A stretch of 64,000 nt of DNA from Mucilaginibacter jinjuensis. GTDB taxonomy: Bacteria; Bacteroidota; Bacteroidia; Sphingobacteriales; Sphingobacteriaceae. The notes under the pieces were generated by a model. That model saw nothing but the letters and a program-made list of their open reading frames with translations. It was not told the origin of the DNA and searched no databases. The stretch spans positions 62,001 through 126,000 of the forward strand of contig NZ_CP117167.1 in assembly GCF_028596025.1 (NCBI RefSeq). Reading direction: 5' to 3'. The translations under genes and the position numbers were made by a program. This document shows, one piece after another, positions 9,050-63,692 of this stretch. The number at the start of each line of letters is the position of its first letter. Position 1 is the stretch's first letter.

Positions 9050-10603
9050 ATGCAGGAAACTACTATTTTATGGGCAGACGACGAAATTGATCTGCTTAAA
9101 CCACATATACTGTTATTAAGCGAAAAAGGTTACAAAGTAACTACCGTAACCAACGGCCGCGATGCGGTTGACGCGTTTAAGAACAGCTATTTTGACCTGG
9201 TTTTCCTGGATGAAAATATGCCCGGCTTAACCGGCCTCGAAACATTATCGGAAATTAAAGCCCTTAATAACGACATACCGGTAGTATTAATTACTAAAAA
9301 CGAAGAAGAACCGATGATGGAAGATGCCATCGGCTCAAAGATAGATGATTACCTGATTAAACCGGTAAACCCTAAGCAGGTATTATTAACCATCAAAAAG
9401 CTTACAGAGAACAAAAGGCTGGTGACCGAGAAAACCACCATGGCCTATCAGCAGGATTTTAGGCAATTGGGTATGACTCTGAATGACAACCTGAGCTACC
9501 AGGAATGGGTTGATGTTTACAAAAAGTTAATTTACTGGGAGCTTGAACTGGAGAAACTGCAAGATTCTGGCATGCATGAAATTTTGACCTTGCAAAAAGC
9601 CGAAGCCAATGTGCAGTTCTCTAAATTCATTGAGAAAAATTACCTCGACTGGATTAAAAACCAGGACAAAGCGCCTACCCTTTCGCACCAGTTATTCAAG
9701 AAAAAAGTTTTCCCTAAGCTGGATGGCGGCCAACCGGTATTTTTTATTCTGATTGATAATTTACGTTACGATCAGTTTAAGATCATTAACCCCATCATCA
9801 GCGAATATTTCAGGCTGGAGGAAGAAGATACTTATTACAGTATTTTGCCAACCGCTACACAATATGCCCGTAACGCCATATTTGCCGGTTTAATGCCGCT
9901 TGATATGGAAAAACGCTACCCTAACATGTGGCAAAATGATGAGGACGAAGGTGGCAAAAACCTATACGAGGCCGATTTTCTGACAGATCATGTAAAACGT
10001 GCTGTACGTAAAGAAACCAAAACATCATACCATAAAATTCTAAACATAGACGAAGGCAGATCACTTAATGATTCGGTTAACAACCTGATGAATAACGACC
10101 TAAACGTGGTTGTTTACAACTTTGTGGATATGCTGTCGCACGCCCGTACCGATATGCAGATGATTCGCGAATTGGCAAGTGATGATGCGGCTTACCGCTC
10201 ATTAACCTTGTCGTGGTTTGAGCATTCACCTTTGTTTGATTTGTTGAAGTTTTTATCAACCAAACAGGTGAAAGTGATCATTACTACCGATCATGGAACC
10301 ATCCGTGTTAAAAACCCAAGCAAAATTGTTGGCGACCGCAACACCAATACCAACCTGCGTTACAAACAAGGCAAAAACCTGAATTTTAATGCGAAGGACG
10401 TTTTCCACATTCGCAACCCGCACGATGCTATGCTTCCTAAACTGCACGTAAGTTCGAGCTTTGTGTTTGCCAAAAGCGACAGTTACTTTGTTTATCCTAA
10501 TAACTATAACCAGTTTGTGAACTTCTATAATGAGTCTTTCCAGCACGGCGGGATCTCTCTGGAAGAAATGATCATCCCGGTGGTTACTTATGGAAGTAAG
10601 TAA
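9050..10603 (+). CDS. porX: PorX: response regulator fused to PglZ phosphatase domain
   Basis: This 517-aa protein has a CheY-like receiver (1 to about 120; acidic pair Asp10-Asp11, phosphoacceptor Asp54 in FLDENMPG, conserved Lys in DYLIKPVNP), a helical linker and a C-terminal PglZ/alkaline-phosphatase-like domain (FFILIDNLRYDQF, the Thr-containing LPTATQYARNAIFAG, and TTDHGTI for metal binding). In Porphyromonas and Flavobacterium PorX controls the type IX secretion system together with the kinase PorY and sigma factor SigP; the PglZ domain hydrolyses oligonucleotide substrates. No PorY or secretion genes are in this window. It heads a plus-strand run and is 39 bp upstream of tsaE. Confidence 0.93.
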   Translation: MQETTILWADDEIDLLKPHILLLSEKGYKVTTVTNGRDAVDAFKNSYFDLVFLDENMPGLTGLETLSEIKALNNDIPVVLITKNEEEPMMEDAIGSKIDDYLIKPVNPKQVLLTIKKLTENKRLVTEKTTMAYQQDFRQLGMTLNDNLSYQEWVDVYKKLIYWELELEKLQDSGMHEILTLQKAEANVQFSKFIEKNYLDWIKNQDKAPTLSHQLFKKKVFPKLDGGQPVFFILIDNLRYDQFKIINPIISEYFRLEEEDTYYSILPTATQYARNAIFAGLMPLDMEKRYPNMWQNDEDEGGKNLYEADFLTDHVKRAVRKETKTSYHKILNIDEGRSLNDSVNNLMNNDLNVVVYNFVDMLSHARTDMQMIRELASDDAAYRSLTLSWFEHSPLFDLLKFLSTKQVKVIITTDHGTIRVKNPSKIVGDRNTNTNLRYKQGKNLNFNAKDVFHIRNPHDAMLPKLHVSSSFVFAKSDSYFVYPNNYNQFVNFYNESFQHGGISLEEMIIPVVTYGSK

Positions 10604-60749: not shown

Positions 60750-62894
60750 TTATGCTTCTTTTTTCATCCAGCTTACTACCGCTTTGATCTCGGTATAACT
60801 GTAATCATCGCCCAAAATCTCTTTTAATGGTGCTAATCTATCAGCACCGTAACTTTCAACCGCATCCTGTATAGCAGGTATTTTTTGCTGATCAACTAAT
60901 TCCGTTACTTCCATTTCGCCGGATTGGATGAAAGAACATAAGTGATTCTCAATAGTAGTTGTAGCCAGGTTACGCATGCCTGCAATTTCAGAAATACTGA
61001 TACCTGCTTTGTACAACTCGAAACTTTCGCGCTGGGTATTTCCTGCTGATGCACGGCTTGTTTTAGTCTTAGTTGCCTTAGCCCGTTTGCTGCTTATTTT
61101 AGAAGCCAGGCCATGTTGCGTACAATAAGCATTAATTATACGTAAAAAAGCTTCGCCATAACGGTTTAGTTTTACTTCGCCAAAACCGGAGATCCGGCCT
61201 AATTCGTCCAAACTTTGCGGCAGATAGGTTGCCATCTCCTGCAAGGTAGCATCAGACAAAATGATGTAAGCGGGTACATTCTCATTCATGGCCAAATTGA
61301 AGCGGATGGTTTTCAATTCATGCAATAGGTCAGCTTCATAAACGGTAGGTTCTGTTGCTTTGGCTTCCTCTTCCATCGCTTCCGAGATCGAAAACTCCAC
61401 TTGTTGCTGTCCTTTTAAAACAGCCTCGCTTGTTGAGGTTAATTTTAATACCGGGTACTGATCGTCAGTAACCTGTAAATAGCCTTGTATTACAAGCTGT
61501 CCGATATAGCGTTGCCATTCGGCTTTGCTAAGATCATTACCAATACCATAAGTTTTTAACTGTTTATGTTCTTCACGGATCTTTTCGCTTCGCGATCCAC
61601 GCAGCAGATCAATCACATAATTAGTACCAAAGCGCTGGTTTAAACGATATACTGCCGATAGCGCTTTTTGTGCGATAACTGTTCCATCAAATTTTTTATA
61701 CTCGGTTAAGCAAACATCACACGAGCCGCAATGATCGGGGAATTGCTCGTTAAAATAATGCATCAAATACTGACGGCGGCAGGTTTGCAGCTGGCAGTAT
61801 TTTACCATATCATCAAGCTTTTTCAGCATAATACGGCTTTGGTCTTCGTTACCCTCTACCCTGGCGAAACGCTGTAATTTAAAGGCATCACCTGCCGAGA
61901 AAAACAATAATGCTTCCGATGGCAAACCATCCCGCCCAGCGCGGCCTGTTTCCTGGTAATAACCTTCTATATTTTTAGGCAGATCGTAATGCACCACGTA
62001 GCGCACGTTAGATTTATTGATACCCATCCCGAAGGCAATGGTGGCTACTATGATTTTTACTTCATCTCGCAAAAACTGGTCCTGATTTAAAGCTTTGGTT
62101 TCATTGTCCAACCCAGCGTGGTAGGCTTTGGCGGCATAACCTTGCTTTTGCAGGTCGGCGGCCAGATGTTCGGTATTCTGCCGGCTCAGGCAGTAAATTA
62201 TGCCCGAATCTTCCTGGTGCTCATCCAAAAAGCCCAGCAACTGGTTGTAGCTGTCTTTCTTGGGAGCTACTGTATAGCTGATGTTAGGACGGTTAAATGA
62301 GGATACAAATTCTTTAGGCTGATGTAAGGCCAGTTTTTCGCGAATATCTTTCCTTGTCAAATCATCCGCCGTAGCAGTTAAAGCGATAACCGGAGTTTTG
62401 GGAAACTCGGTTTTGAAGCTCGAAAGCATCAAATACTCTGGGCGGAAATCGTGACCCCAGTGCGAGATACAATGCGCCTCATCAATAGCAATGAGGCTTA
62501 CATTTAAAGTTTTTAAAAAAGTAACCAACCGGCTCTCTGAGCCGAACAAACGCTCGGGAGCCAGGTAAAGCAATTTGATCTCGCCCGATTTTAACCTGCT
62601 TACAATGCTTTGCTGCTCATTTGGATTTTGGCTCGAGTTTAAGAAAGCTGCCGGGATGCCGTTGATGTTCAAGGCATCAACCTGGTCTTTCATCAGGGCA
62701 ATTAACGGCGAGATAACTACCGTTAATCCACTAAGTAATACAGCGGGTAGCTGGTAACATAATGACTTACCGCCTCCTGTAGGCATTAGCACCAAAGCAT
62801 CGCCAACTGTTAATACCTGCTGAACAATGGCTTCCTGCTGATGGCGGAACTCTGTGTAACCAAAATATTTATGTAAGGCTTGTAGGGGCGTCAT
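60750..62894 (-). CDS. recQ: ATP-dependent DNA helicase RecQ
   Basis: RecQ unwinds DNA 3'-5' in recombination and repair. The 714-aa protein has Walker A MPTGGGKSLCYQLP (Lys43), AIDEAHCISHWGHDFRPEY (DEAH box and the aromatic-rich loop), the helicase motif VI ETGRAGRDG, the RQC zinc cysteines (CQLQTC and HCGSCDVC), the winged helix and an HRDC domain (about 520-600). The last about 110 residues are a helix-turn-helix-like tail (SFELYKAGISISEIAGMRNLATTTIENHL), also seen in other Bacteroidota and Firmicutes RecQ proteins. The start at 62894 is followed upstream by the RAYT region. Confidence 0.96.
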   Translation of the reverse strand: MTPLQALHKYFGYTEFRHQQEAIVQQVLTVGDALVLMPTGGGKSLCYQLPAVLLSGLTVVISPLIALMKDQVDALNINGIPAAFLNSSQNPNEQQSIVSRLKSGEIKLLYLAPERLFGSESRLVTFLKTLNVSLIAIDEAHCISHWGHDFRPEYLMLSSFKTEFPKTPVIALTATADDLTRKDIREKLALHQPKEFVSSFNRPNISYTVAPKKDSYNQLLGFLDEHQEDSGIIYCLSRQNTEHLAADLQKQGYAAKAYHAGLDNETKALNQDQFLRDEVKIIVATIAFGMGINKSNVRYVVHYDLPKNIEGYYQETGRAGRDGLPSEALLFFSAGDAFKLQRFARVEGNEDQSRIMLKKLDDMVKYCQLQTCRRQYLMHYFNEQFPDHCGSCDVCLTEYKKFDGTVIAQKALSAVYRLNQRFGTNYVIDLLRGSRSEKIREEHKQLKTYGIGNDLSKAEWQRYIGQLVIQGYLQVTDDQYPVLKLTSTSEAVLKGQQQVEFSISEAMEEEAKATEPTVYEADLLHELKTIRFNLAMNENVPAYIILSDATLQEMATYLPQSLDELGRISGFGEVKLNRYGEAFLRIINAYCTQHGLASKISSKRAKATKTKTSRASAGNTQRESFELYKAGISISEIAGMRNLATTTIENHLCSFIQSGEMEVTELVDQQKIPAIQDAVESYGADRLAPLKEILGDDYSYTEIKAVVSWMKKEA

Positions 62895-62923: not shown

Positions 62924-63012
62924 ATTGTTGGTGACAACACCAACAATGGCGCTGACCTTGCTTCTTCTCACATTATTTTTTTTCTGCCGTTGTTGGTGTT
63001 GTCACCAACAAC
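62924..63012. repeat. REP-like hairpin pair, left of the RAYT gene
   Basis: Two 24-nt hairpins face each other. Hairpin 1 (62924-62947) has arms ATTGTTGGTG/CACCAACAAT and loop ACAA. Hairpin 2 (62989-63012) has arms GTTGTTGGTG/CACCAACAAC and loop TTGT, the complement of loop 1. The spacer is 41 nt. In matching orientation each is preceded by GCC. The pair ends 24 bp after the transposase stop codon. Confidence 0.92.
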
Positions 63013-63036
63013 TTTTGCTTTGTTACGCAAATAATG

Positions 63037-63567
63037 CTAATCTCCATCATAATGTGTTATCAAACCAAAATCATCTATTCCGGTTTCATAAAACCTTGCC
63101 GATGAATATTTATAATCTTCAGGATAAGTACAAAGCTCCCATTTTTGTTGAAGCGGATTATCGTGTATGTAATTTAACTTTTGCATAAAAACATCAGGAC
63201 TCCAAAGATCAATGCTTAACGAGTTTCTTTCCCAAAACTGATATTGTCTGTCTTTTGCATTCACCTTGTATAAATCAAGTGAGTGATTCTGGGTATCTAA
63301 TAATCGGAATTTAAATTGCTGTGCTGTAAATTTTAGAAAACGCAATTTTATATTTTCAGCTTTAAAACCATCTTGTATTTGCCAGATGAGGTGTATATGA
63401 TTGGGCATAATAACGAAAGCGTAGACCTTGATGCTGCCTTCGGTTTTGAGATATAACAGGCTTTTGATGATAATATCTTTTAAAGCATCGTCTTTTAATA
63501 ATGGTTTCCACTCTAATATAGTTGCAGTAAAGAATTGTGGATGGTAATCAAAATTGATAAGGGCCAT
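63037..63567 (-). CDS. REP-associated tyrosine transposase (RAYT), Y1/HUH family
   Basis: The 176-aa protein (start ATG 63567, MALINFDYHPQFF) has the Y1 transposase signature: the HUH motif in VIMPNHIHLIWQ (about 70-80) and the tyrosine in the C-terminal YIHDNPLQQKWELCTYPEDYKYSSA (in outline), the pattern of RAYT proteins. It is single-copy here and has no IS-type ends. On both sides lie inverted pairs of the same REP-like hairpin, as known for RAYTs of proteobacteria, where the enzyme recognises and cuts REP DNA. An in-frame start at 63624 would lie inside the right-hand hairpin and is rejected. Confidence 0.92.
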   Translation of the reverse strand: MALINFDYHPQFFTATILEWKPLLKDDALKDIIIKSLLYLKTEGSIKVYAFVIMPNHIHLIWQIQDGFKAENIKLRFLKFTAQQFKFRLLDTQNHSLDLYKVNAKDRQYQFWERNSLSIDLWSPDVFMQKLNYIHDNPLQQKWELCTYPEDYKYSSARFYETGIDDFGLITHYDGD

Positions 63568-63601
63568 TGTGATAGATAGGTTGTTGTTGATAAAATTGGT
63601 T

Positions 63602-63692
63602 ATTGTTGGTGACAACACCAACAATGGCGTTGGATTTTCTTGACGTTGTACCGGGCCATTTTTTTGCCGTTGTTGGTGTTGTCACCAACAAC
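63602..63692. repeat. REP-like hairpin pair, right of the RAYT gene
   Basis: Hairpin 3 (63602-63625) is identical to hairpin 1 and hairpin 4 (63669-63692) is identical to hairpin 2. The spacer is 43 nt and is not similar to that of the left pair beyond the GGCG and TTTTT..GCC edges. In matching orientation GCC precedes each hairpin. The pair begins 34 bp upstream of the transposase start. Confidence 0.92.

Follow-up and report, generated by a model that had tools for sequence, protein, structure and literature searches.

The 64,000-bp stretch of the Mucilaginibacter jinjuensis genome analysed here (NZ_CP117167.1, positions 62,001 to 126,000; referred to as the window) carries, close to one end, a gene for a 176-residue protein of the REP-associated tyrosine transposase (RAYT) type, where REP denotes a repetitive extragenic palindromic sequence. 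The gene is bracketed on each side by a pair of short hairpins, and the whole unit lies on the 5' side of recQ. The features are listed below in window coordinates.

62924..62950, minus strand: outer left REP hairpin, A-T type, with its GCC foot at 62948-62950
62951..62985, no strand: 35-nt spacer between the two left hairpins, whose feet face inward
62986..63012, plus strand: inner left REP hairpin, G-C type, with its GCC foot at 62986-62988, directed at the RAYT gene
63037..63567, minus strand: RAYT (TnpA-REP) gene, 176 aa, with HUH residues H57 and H59 and Y133, assigned from profile and fold
63602..63628, minus strand: inner right REP hairpin, A-T type, directed at the RAYT gene
63629..63665, no strand: 37-nt spacer of the right REP pair
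63666..63692, plus strand: outer right REP hairpin, G-C type
60750..62894, minus strand: recQ, the neighbour outside the unit

Read on the strand that carries the TTGT loop, all four hairpins conform to the consensus GCC-R-TTGTTGGTG-TTGT-CACCAACAA-Y. The stem consists of 10 perfect base pairs closed by a 4-nt loop, and R pairs with Y as the outermost stem pair, which is either G-C or A-T. Two hairpin types are defined in this way, and the two copies within each type are identical. The inner hairpins are directed at the RAYT gene, with their GCC feet on the outer side. A search of the window with the core pattern, allowing up to three mismatches, gave five matches, the four perfect copies and one with three mismatches at 10326, compared with a mean of 0.04 in shuffled windows; with the foot included, there were four matches in the window and 0.00 in the shuffles. 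Of the two hairpins folded as single-stranded DNA, one has an energy of −10.6 kcal/mol (z −4.7) and the other of −9.9 kcal/mol (z −5.5), and each REP pair can also be folded whole as a single long hairpin, with energies of −28 and −29 kcal/mol. These shuffles, of pattern counts and of folding alike, rule out chance hairpins.

An earlier, sequence-only reading of this DNA had described an HUH/Y1 gene flanked by identical hairpins in inverted order, and we confirm its coordinates, 10-bp arms and 4-nt loops. It had called the spacers unrelated, which is true of their middles but not of their ends, where GGCGYTG is common to both at one end and a run of T precedes TGCC at the other. The GCC foot that it recognised is present on all four copies in the window, but over the genome as a whole the foot is rather CGCC, found in 26 of 30 copies. 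No further copy of the hairpin is found in the window at up to two mismatches.

The RAYT protein contains an NHIH motif at residues 56–59 and a catalytic-type tyrosine, Y133. In an alignment of 32 sequences, comprising the window protein and 31 of 80 related loci, residues N56, H57, H59, W62 and Y133 are invariant throughout. When the profile built from this alignment was compared with the sequences of the Protein Data Bank (PDB), the sole match at E ≤ 0.1 was TnpA-REP, entry 4er8 (5.5e-5). The AlphaFold model of the protein is predicted with high scores (pLDDT 91.9, pTM 0.88), and its best PDB match in Foldseek is again 4er8, the Escherichia coli TnpA-REP with a REP hairpin (E 7.8e-9). Superposition of model and 4er8 in VIA-align gives a Z of 14.4 over 137 aligned residues with an rmsd of 3.0; the corresponding Z for the IS608 and ISDra2 enzymes is 11.4–12.0. 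Lower-ranked structure matches (Thg1, ribosomal S6 and others) were taken to reflect a common fold only. Profile and predicted fold together support a RAYT-like protein, a common fold being no proof of activity. The closest named relatives are from a Sphingobacteriaceae metagenome-assembled genome (90% identity) and from Mucilaginibacter gossypii (78%), and the loci at 67% identity or more are mostly named Mucilaginibacter. The motifs of the protein are NHIH, WQ and YIHDNP, the last appearing as YIHNNP or YIHQNP, among others, in relatives.

Copies of the hairpin are dispersed over the 6.16-Mb genome, which is a single contig. With the foot included and up to two mismatches, a modest 30 copies are found, four at the RAYT gene and 26 distributed over 16 other places, and a reversed-pattern control gives 0 matches in the whole genome. 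Although open reading frames (ORFs) fill 83% of these loci, 27 of the 30 copies lie outside ORFs of at least 90 residues; the other three, two in a 106-codon frame and one in an upstream TTG extension of the RAYT frame, are in frames whose coding nature is doubtful. The outermost stem pair is G-C in 15 copies, A-T in 12 and something else in three, where independence of the two positions would give 14.7 Watson–Crick pairs. Nine dispersed inward pairs are present with a spacer of 22–30 nt, seven intact and two with a decayed partner; among random positions, only 3 of 4253 have such an inward partner. These are inverted, over-represented REP doublets, that is, REPINs as defined by Bertels and Rainey (PMC3116915). 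Seven of the nine combine an A-T with a G-C type, as read from their sequences, and in the pairs at 1784193 and 2510875 the outer stem pair is mismatched or decayed. Since the A-T/G-C asymmetry is common to the REPINs and to the inner hairpins of the RAYT unit, the gene occupies the place of a REPIN spacer.

The genome holds one full copy of the RAYT gene (100%), and the next best match is at 39%. The other RAYT-like genes of the genome (39%, 34% and 38% identity) have no such hairpin on either strand of their 8.5–11-kb loci. One of them, L037 (39%; positions 816008-816523 of the genome, G000), is flanked by a different short hairpin with TAAGCT or similar arms and a 3-nt loop. Similar hairpins stand beside its relatives in L061, L062, L064 and L067, and these hairpins probably constitute another REP family.

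The association of hairpin and gene extends through the genus. In a set of 149 genomes, presence of the RAYT was scored at more than 200 bits, some genes being broken or partial, and hairpins were counted at up to one mismatch. All 39 RAYT-bearing genomes hold at least two hairpins, with a median of 13 and a maximum of 62. Among the 110 others, the median is two in the 22 that have only a relative of 40–49% identity and 0 in the 88 that have neither. The difference in hairpin count between RAYT-bearing genomes and the rest has a Mann–Whitney p of 1.7e-14, which is not corrected for relatedness, the species not being independent.

The same anatomy recurs across Bacteroidota and Ignavibacteria/Chlorobi. 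We used 76 of the 80 related loci, those in which the gene has 250 bp or more of sequence on each side, leaving out L100, L117, L129 and L139. In 53 of the 76, hairpins with shared arms flank the gene at both ends (control windows, 0/204), and a GTTGG-armed hairpin is present in 58 loci (control windows, 7/204); among the 30 close loci, 27 have hairpins on both sides. In a tally drawn from 66 of 81 loci, the window included, 109 of the 117 nearest hairpins with a 4-nt T-loop are directed at the gene (53/59 upstream, 56/58 downstream). Among 115 distinct hairpins, 71 have a GCC foot, and 99 have a paired outermost position, which takes all four Watson–Crick forms. Stems differ between lineages and stay paired, but inclusion required a perfect stem of 8 bp or more, which leaves only the outer two pairs unbiased; the inner pairs being demanded by this selection, their pairing is no evidence. 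Finally, the genomes that carry 20 more distant loci were searched, and hairpin matches were found in 14 of them (among these, 40 in G179, 27 in G186, 18 in G175 and one each in three); the controls have 0.

Empty sites can be recognised in close relatives. The recQ region was compared in full in six genomes, among which the RAYT adjoins recQ only in M. jinjuensis and in G158, whose recQ DNA is 85% identical. In the genomes next in recQ identity, G094, G016, G085 and G036, recQ has the same neighbour and no RAYT lies between the two genes; the gap is filled by other sequence (~550 bp, 1.5 kb) or measures only 84–159 bp between aligned blocks. A search for this RAYT at E ≤ 1e-30 finds nothing in these four genomes, and they have 0 hairpins at up to one mismatch. 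In the other RAYT-bearing genomes, RAYT and recQ are distant or on separate contigs wherever both are listed. A REPIN-containing stretch of 256 bp at 2089479 in M. jinjuensis corresponds to ~35 bp in G094 and ~10 bp in G016, and G158 has a lone truncated copy there. Both REPINs at 6038100-6038390 are absent from G158, G016 and G094, and at 6031653-6031839 there is one truncated copy in G158 and none in G094 or G016. The distribution fits arrival of gene and hairpins in the ancestor of M. jinjuensis and G158, with subsequent spread; loss in all four would be the costlier account.

Some of these sites have further features. Another dispersed element, ~124 bp long and bounded by inverted ends (GTCATTTCGA...TCGAAATGAC), adjoins REPINs at L026:4073-4196 and near L035:10500-10640 (G000 ~2089572-2089695 and ~6038200-6038340). 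One REPIN seemingly cuts into a copy of this element, which also has matches elsewhere in relatives. A 40-nt repeat at L026:2816-2855 recurs with 93–100% identity in G094 and G158, at several places. At L035:10360-10880 (G000 ~6038060-6038580), the 3' end of a gene is seemingly duplicated around two REPINs; it is single in G158 and G016 in the stretches compared.

The unit as a whole is found at different places in different species. We compared the flanks of 22 RAYT loci from 21 genomes, several of these flanks ending at contig ends. Flanking genes are shared at high identity by close relatives (G000/G158, G013/G079, G022/G086, G072/G074 and G005/G080, together with one G144 copy), and the remaining flanks have no match, or matches of 29–44% that were taken as shared protein families. 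In G157 and G136, whose recQ genes are 97.9% identical, the only homology of at least 70 bp is an 813-bp block that starts and ends at hairpins. The homology blocks in G100/G107 (633 bp) and G008/G109 (621 bp) likewise end in or next to hairpins; that in G033/G144 (604 bp) reaches a hairpin foot at its 3' end, but its 5' end does not extend to the hairpin and lies 26 bp ahead of the gene. Over six pairs (these four, G033/G105 and G105/G144, nine genomes in total, so that some pairs depend on each other), tblastx at E ≤ 1e-20 finds 0 shared bases in the RAYT flanks over up to 4 kb per side, whereas 0.8–3.9 kb of the recQ flanks are homologous. In G136 the RAYT lies at a contig end, so that one side was compared, and the recQ contig is short; recQ moreover serves as a single control gene and gives no genome-wide estimate of synteny. 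Eight of the 10 two-row forks of the RAYT tree recur in the recQ tree, with only nine of 28 inner RAYT branches well supported, and the RAYT and recQ distances are correlated (Mantel rho 0.40, p 0.001). The RAYT shared by G033 and G144 is likely to reflect transfer (RAYT 90% identical, recQ 80%). Taken together, the shared forks and unmatched flanks indicate that the RAYT has descended mostly within the genus and that its position has not been kept.

From these comparisons, the REP–RAYT–REP unit of roughly 600–810 bp, with its REPs directed inward, appears to have changed place among species. It may have done so through its own enzyme, through recombination between REPs or by horizontal transfer. 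In the first case the unit would be a mobile element whose RAYT moves its own gene like a REPIN with cargo, the gene-bearing unit and the REPINs being autonomous and non-autonomous forms of one single-strand transposon that uses CGCC as guide; we regard this as a distinct possibility that stops short of being probable. Beside the RAYT at L051:2148-3520 (G010), a 242-bp unit that includes the hairpin is repeated 5.6 times. In G033, arrays of ~90–100 bp combine the 3' end of the RAYT with the hairpin, and the distance between the two RAYT copies there is 2.8 kb.

The locus is very likely a REPtron and belongs most likely to TnpA-REP subclass 2.6. Its RAYT gene stands between inward REPs with a second REP outside each, and the RAYT would copy or move REPINs. 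This interpretation draws on the observed anatomy, dispersal and pair structure of the hairpins, on their co-occurrence with the gene, on the empty sites and on the differing places of the unit among related species. The sequence-only reading, which proposed a bacteroidotal RAYT with its own REP family, is supported by the protein profile and fold, by the 30 genomic copies and by the copies in relatives; the dispersed copies that it considered possible exist, mostly outside ORFs and often as inward pairs. It had also named two outcomes that would count against it. The first, that the genome would hold just these four copies and its relatives none, was not borne out; the second, that some copies would be unconnected with any RAYT, holds in part, since 57 of the 110 RAYT-less congeners hold at least one hairpin.

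This last result is one of several that weigh against the interpretation. Of these congeners, 24 hold at least five hairpins, and the counts reach 29 in G096, 22 in G068, 19 in G152 and 17 in G137; G062 has 11 copies and no RAYT match at all. No hairpin was found within ~1.5 kb of 30 RAYT-like loci from ten of the genomes with orphan hairpins; the 30 consist of 28 RAYT-like matches together with L058 and L062 and do not cover every such match in those genomes. Agreement in detail between dispersed and RAYT-flanking copies, tallied by hand, is mixed. The loops match in 8/8 copies in G010 but in 1/5 in G080, 1/4 in G005 and 2/7 in G015, and a CCC-type foot occurs in 3/4 dispersed copies in G072 and 5/9 in G074, but no CCC or CAC foot occurs among the 11 dispersed copies of G022 or the five of G086. 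Because the matching of loop, stem and foot variants is so mixed, fine co-evolution is not claimed. As to the protein, the NCBIfam REP-associated tyrosine transposase model NF047646 matches at E 1.2e-20 but with 73.9 bits against a cut-off of 80, which we take as a naming threshold and not as defining RAYT membership. Pfam Y1_Tnp matches at E 0.004 with 17.7 against a cut-off of 23, a Pfam search at E ≤ 0.001 giving no match; at E ≤ 1 the same model matches 30 of the 32 family members. Loss of the RAYT is likely to lie behind hairpins in genomes that lack it. The 15–29 hairpins in G096, G068, G152, G137 and G004, which are without this RAYT and count among the ten genomes above, may be relics or may be used by another enzyme.

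The alternative that survives best is a domesticated RAYT, inherited in place and serving the host at the replication fork, in repair or in regulation, its hairpins, now immobile, being relics or regulatory sites. The low copy number per genome would suit this, as would a RAYT tree that largely follows the recQ tree and the keeping of the gene's place in close relatives; tnpA-REP genes have, in addition, been described as more housekeeping-like (PMC8266576). Inheritance in place as a full account is nevertheless rejected on the six species pairs with unmatched RAYT flanks and matched recQ flanks, and the four genomes that come closest to M. jinjuensis and G158 by recQ have neither a RAYT beside recQ nor the REPs. 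We consider domestication unlikely but not negligible. Much less can be said for an ordinary insertion sequence (IS) of the IS200/IS605 type, with the hairpins as its ends and solo ends left over. The HUH/Y1 fold common to the IS608 and ISDra2 enzymes and the differing places of the unit are in its favour, but the best fold match, over 137 residues, is TnpA-REP, the same hairpin stands inverted at both ends, and one gene copy with many short hairpins is the reverse of what an IS presents; we reject this very improbable account on the single full copy and the fold. A role of the hairpins in terminating transcription or as mRNA-end structures, without a link to the RAYT, as their strength and mostly extragenic location might suggest, is hardly credible and is rejected on the mixed orientations (divergent, convergent and co-directional) of the ORFs around the copies, the conservation of the GCC foot on one side only, the excess of hairpins in RAYT-bearing genomes and their presence around the RAYT well beyond the genus.

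For the REPtron, the following scheme can be proposed. The RAYT would most likely bind the hairpin in single-stranded DNA, for example at the replication fork, with the 5' foot nucleotides (CGCC) positioning the cut. The ends of a REP pair would be joined through the RAYT tyrosine, and REPINs with their 22–30-nt spacer would thereby be copied or moved into intergenic DNA; the RAYT gene itself is laid out like a REPIN, in which it takes the place of the spacer. Binding, cleavage and the guiding role of the foot are put forward by homology with the enzymes of E. coli, Stenotrophomonas and Marinomonas. In the report on these enzymes (PMC8266576), single-stranded REP DNA is cut at C|T (by the Marinomonas enzyme also at CA), cleavage is tyrosine-dependent as judged from Tyr mutants of the S. 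maltophilia and Marinomonas proteins, and the GTAG foot has a role. In the M. jinjuensis genome, CT occurs at −4/−3 before the foot in 12 of 30 copies, compared with 0–6 at 23 other offsets, which suggests that CT four bases before the foot may mark the position of the cut. The cross-complementarity guide rule given in the same report, applied to the CGCC foot, would predict a GG or GC cut site, unlike the enriched CT.

RAYTs were defined by Nunvar et al. as flanked by two inverted REPs in a manner reminiscent of a transposable element (PMC2817692), and the same authors reported no homologs in other major lineages. TnpA-REP subclass 2.6, which corresponds to RAYT group 5 of Bertels et al., is described in PMC6006769 as mostly from Bacteroidetes, with hairpins that are not of the GT[AG]G kind and with genomic copies. 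This kind of RAYT and atypical Bacteroidetes hairpins are thus already published there, and ours is not a new kind. What the present analysis adds is the anatomy of the hairpin and its recurrence across Bacteroidota and Ignavibacteria/Chlorobi, the co-occurrence, the empty sites and the signs of relocation of the unit. The motifs and hairpin features make subclass 2.6 the most likely placement. Its NH[LIV]H, WQ and YIH[QN]NP motifs (PMC6006769) are matched here apart from a one-residue departure, the D of YIHDNP, and in both cases the flanking hairpins lack GT[AG]G and recur at other places in the genome. Particular to the present case are the 10-bp perfect stem, the CGCC foot, the REPINs and a unit that changes place between species; the HUH-to-Y spacing is 73 residues, against a median of 82 reported for the subclass. 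On account of its CGCC foot, the family is not filed under the GTAG-type subclasses 2.2, 2.4, 2.5, 2.7 and 2.8.

The E. coli TnpA-REP system with its Y and Z REPs (group 2; PMC8266576, 4er8) is similar in fold, in the inverted REPs around the gene and in the paired REP subtypes; there, however, the foot is GTAG and the stems are bulged. The REPINs of Pseudomonas fluorescens SBW25 (PMC3116915) are likewise inward doublets, mostly extragenic and tied to a RAYT, but they number hundreds of doublets compared with ~30 hairpins here, and spacer and foot differ. With IS608 and ISDra2 the family shares the HUH/Y1 fold and, going by the descriptions in PMC6006769 and PMC8266576, hairpin recognition and 5' guide nucleotides; unlike these, it has no set of full-length copies in this genome, and its best fold is that of TnpA-REP. 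Repeats tagged with CGTC, as against CGCC here, are described in Bacteroidetes and other phyla without a dedicated transposase (PMC3733652), and in Chryseobacterium the distance between a RayT gene and abeS is short in some cases and long in another (PMC11194056). Our literature search found no recognised paper on REPs of Mucilaginibacter and did not meet the hairpin consensus in the texts covered, which did not extend to supplementary tables.

RAYTs have been treated as domesticated transposases that perhaps move REPs but not themselves. The introduction of PMC8266576 states that there is no evidence for mobility of tnpA-REP genes, and for class 2 genes PMC6006769 says likewise, preferring horizontal transfer as the explanation. 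Mucilaginibacter provides a natural experiment on this point: because related species carry the same unit at unrelated places and near relatives have neither gene nor hairpins, both the spread of REPs and the mobility of the RAYT become directly testable. The conserved CGCC foot, in place of GTAG, provides a new test of the guide model for the choice of cut site. If true, a self-moving unit would overturn the view that tnpA-REP genes never move themselves, at least in this Bacteroidota subclass.
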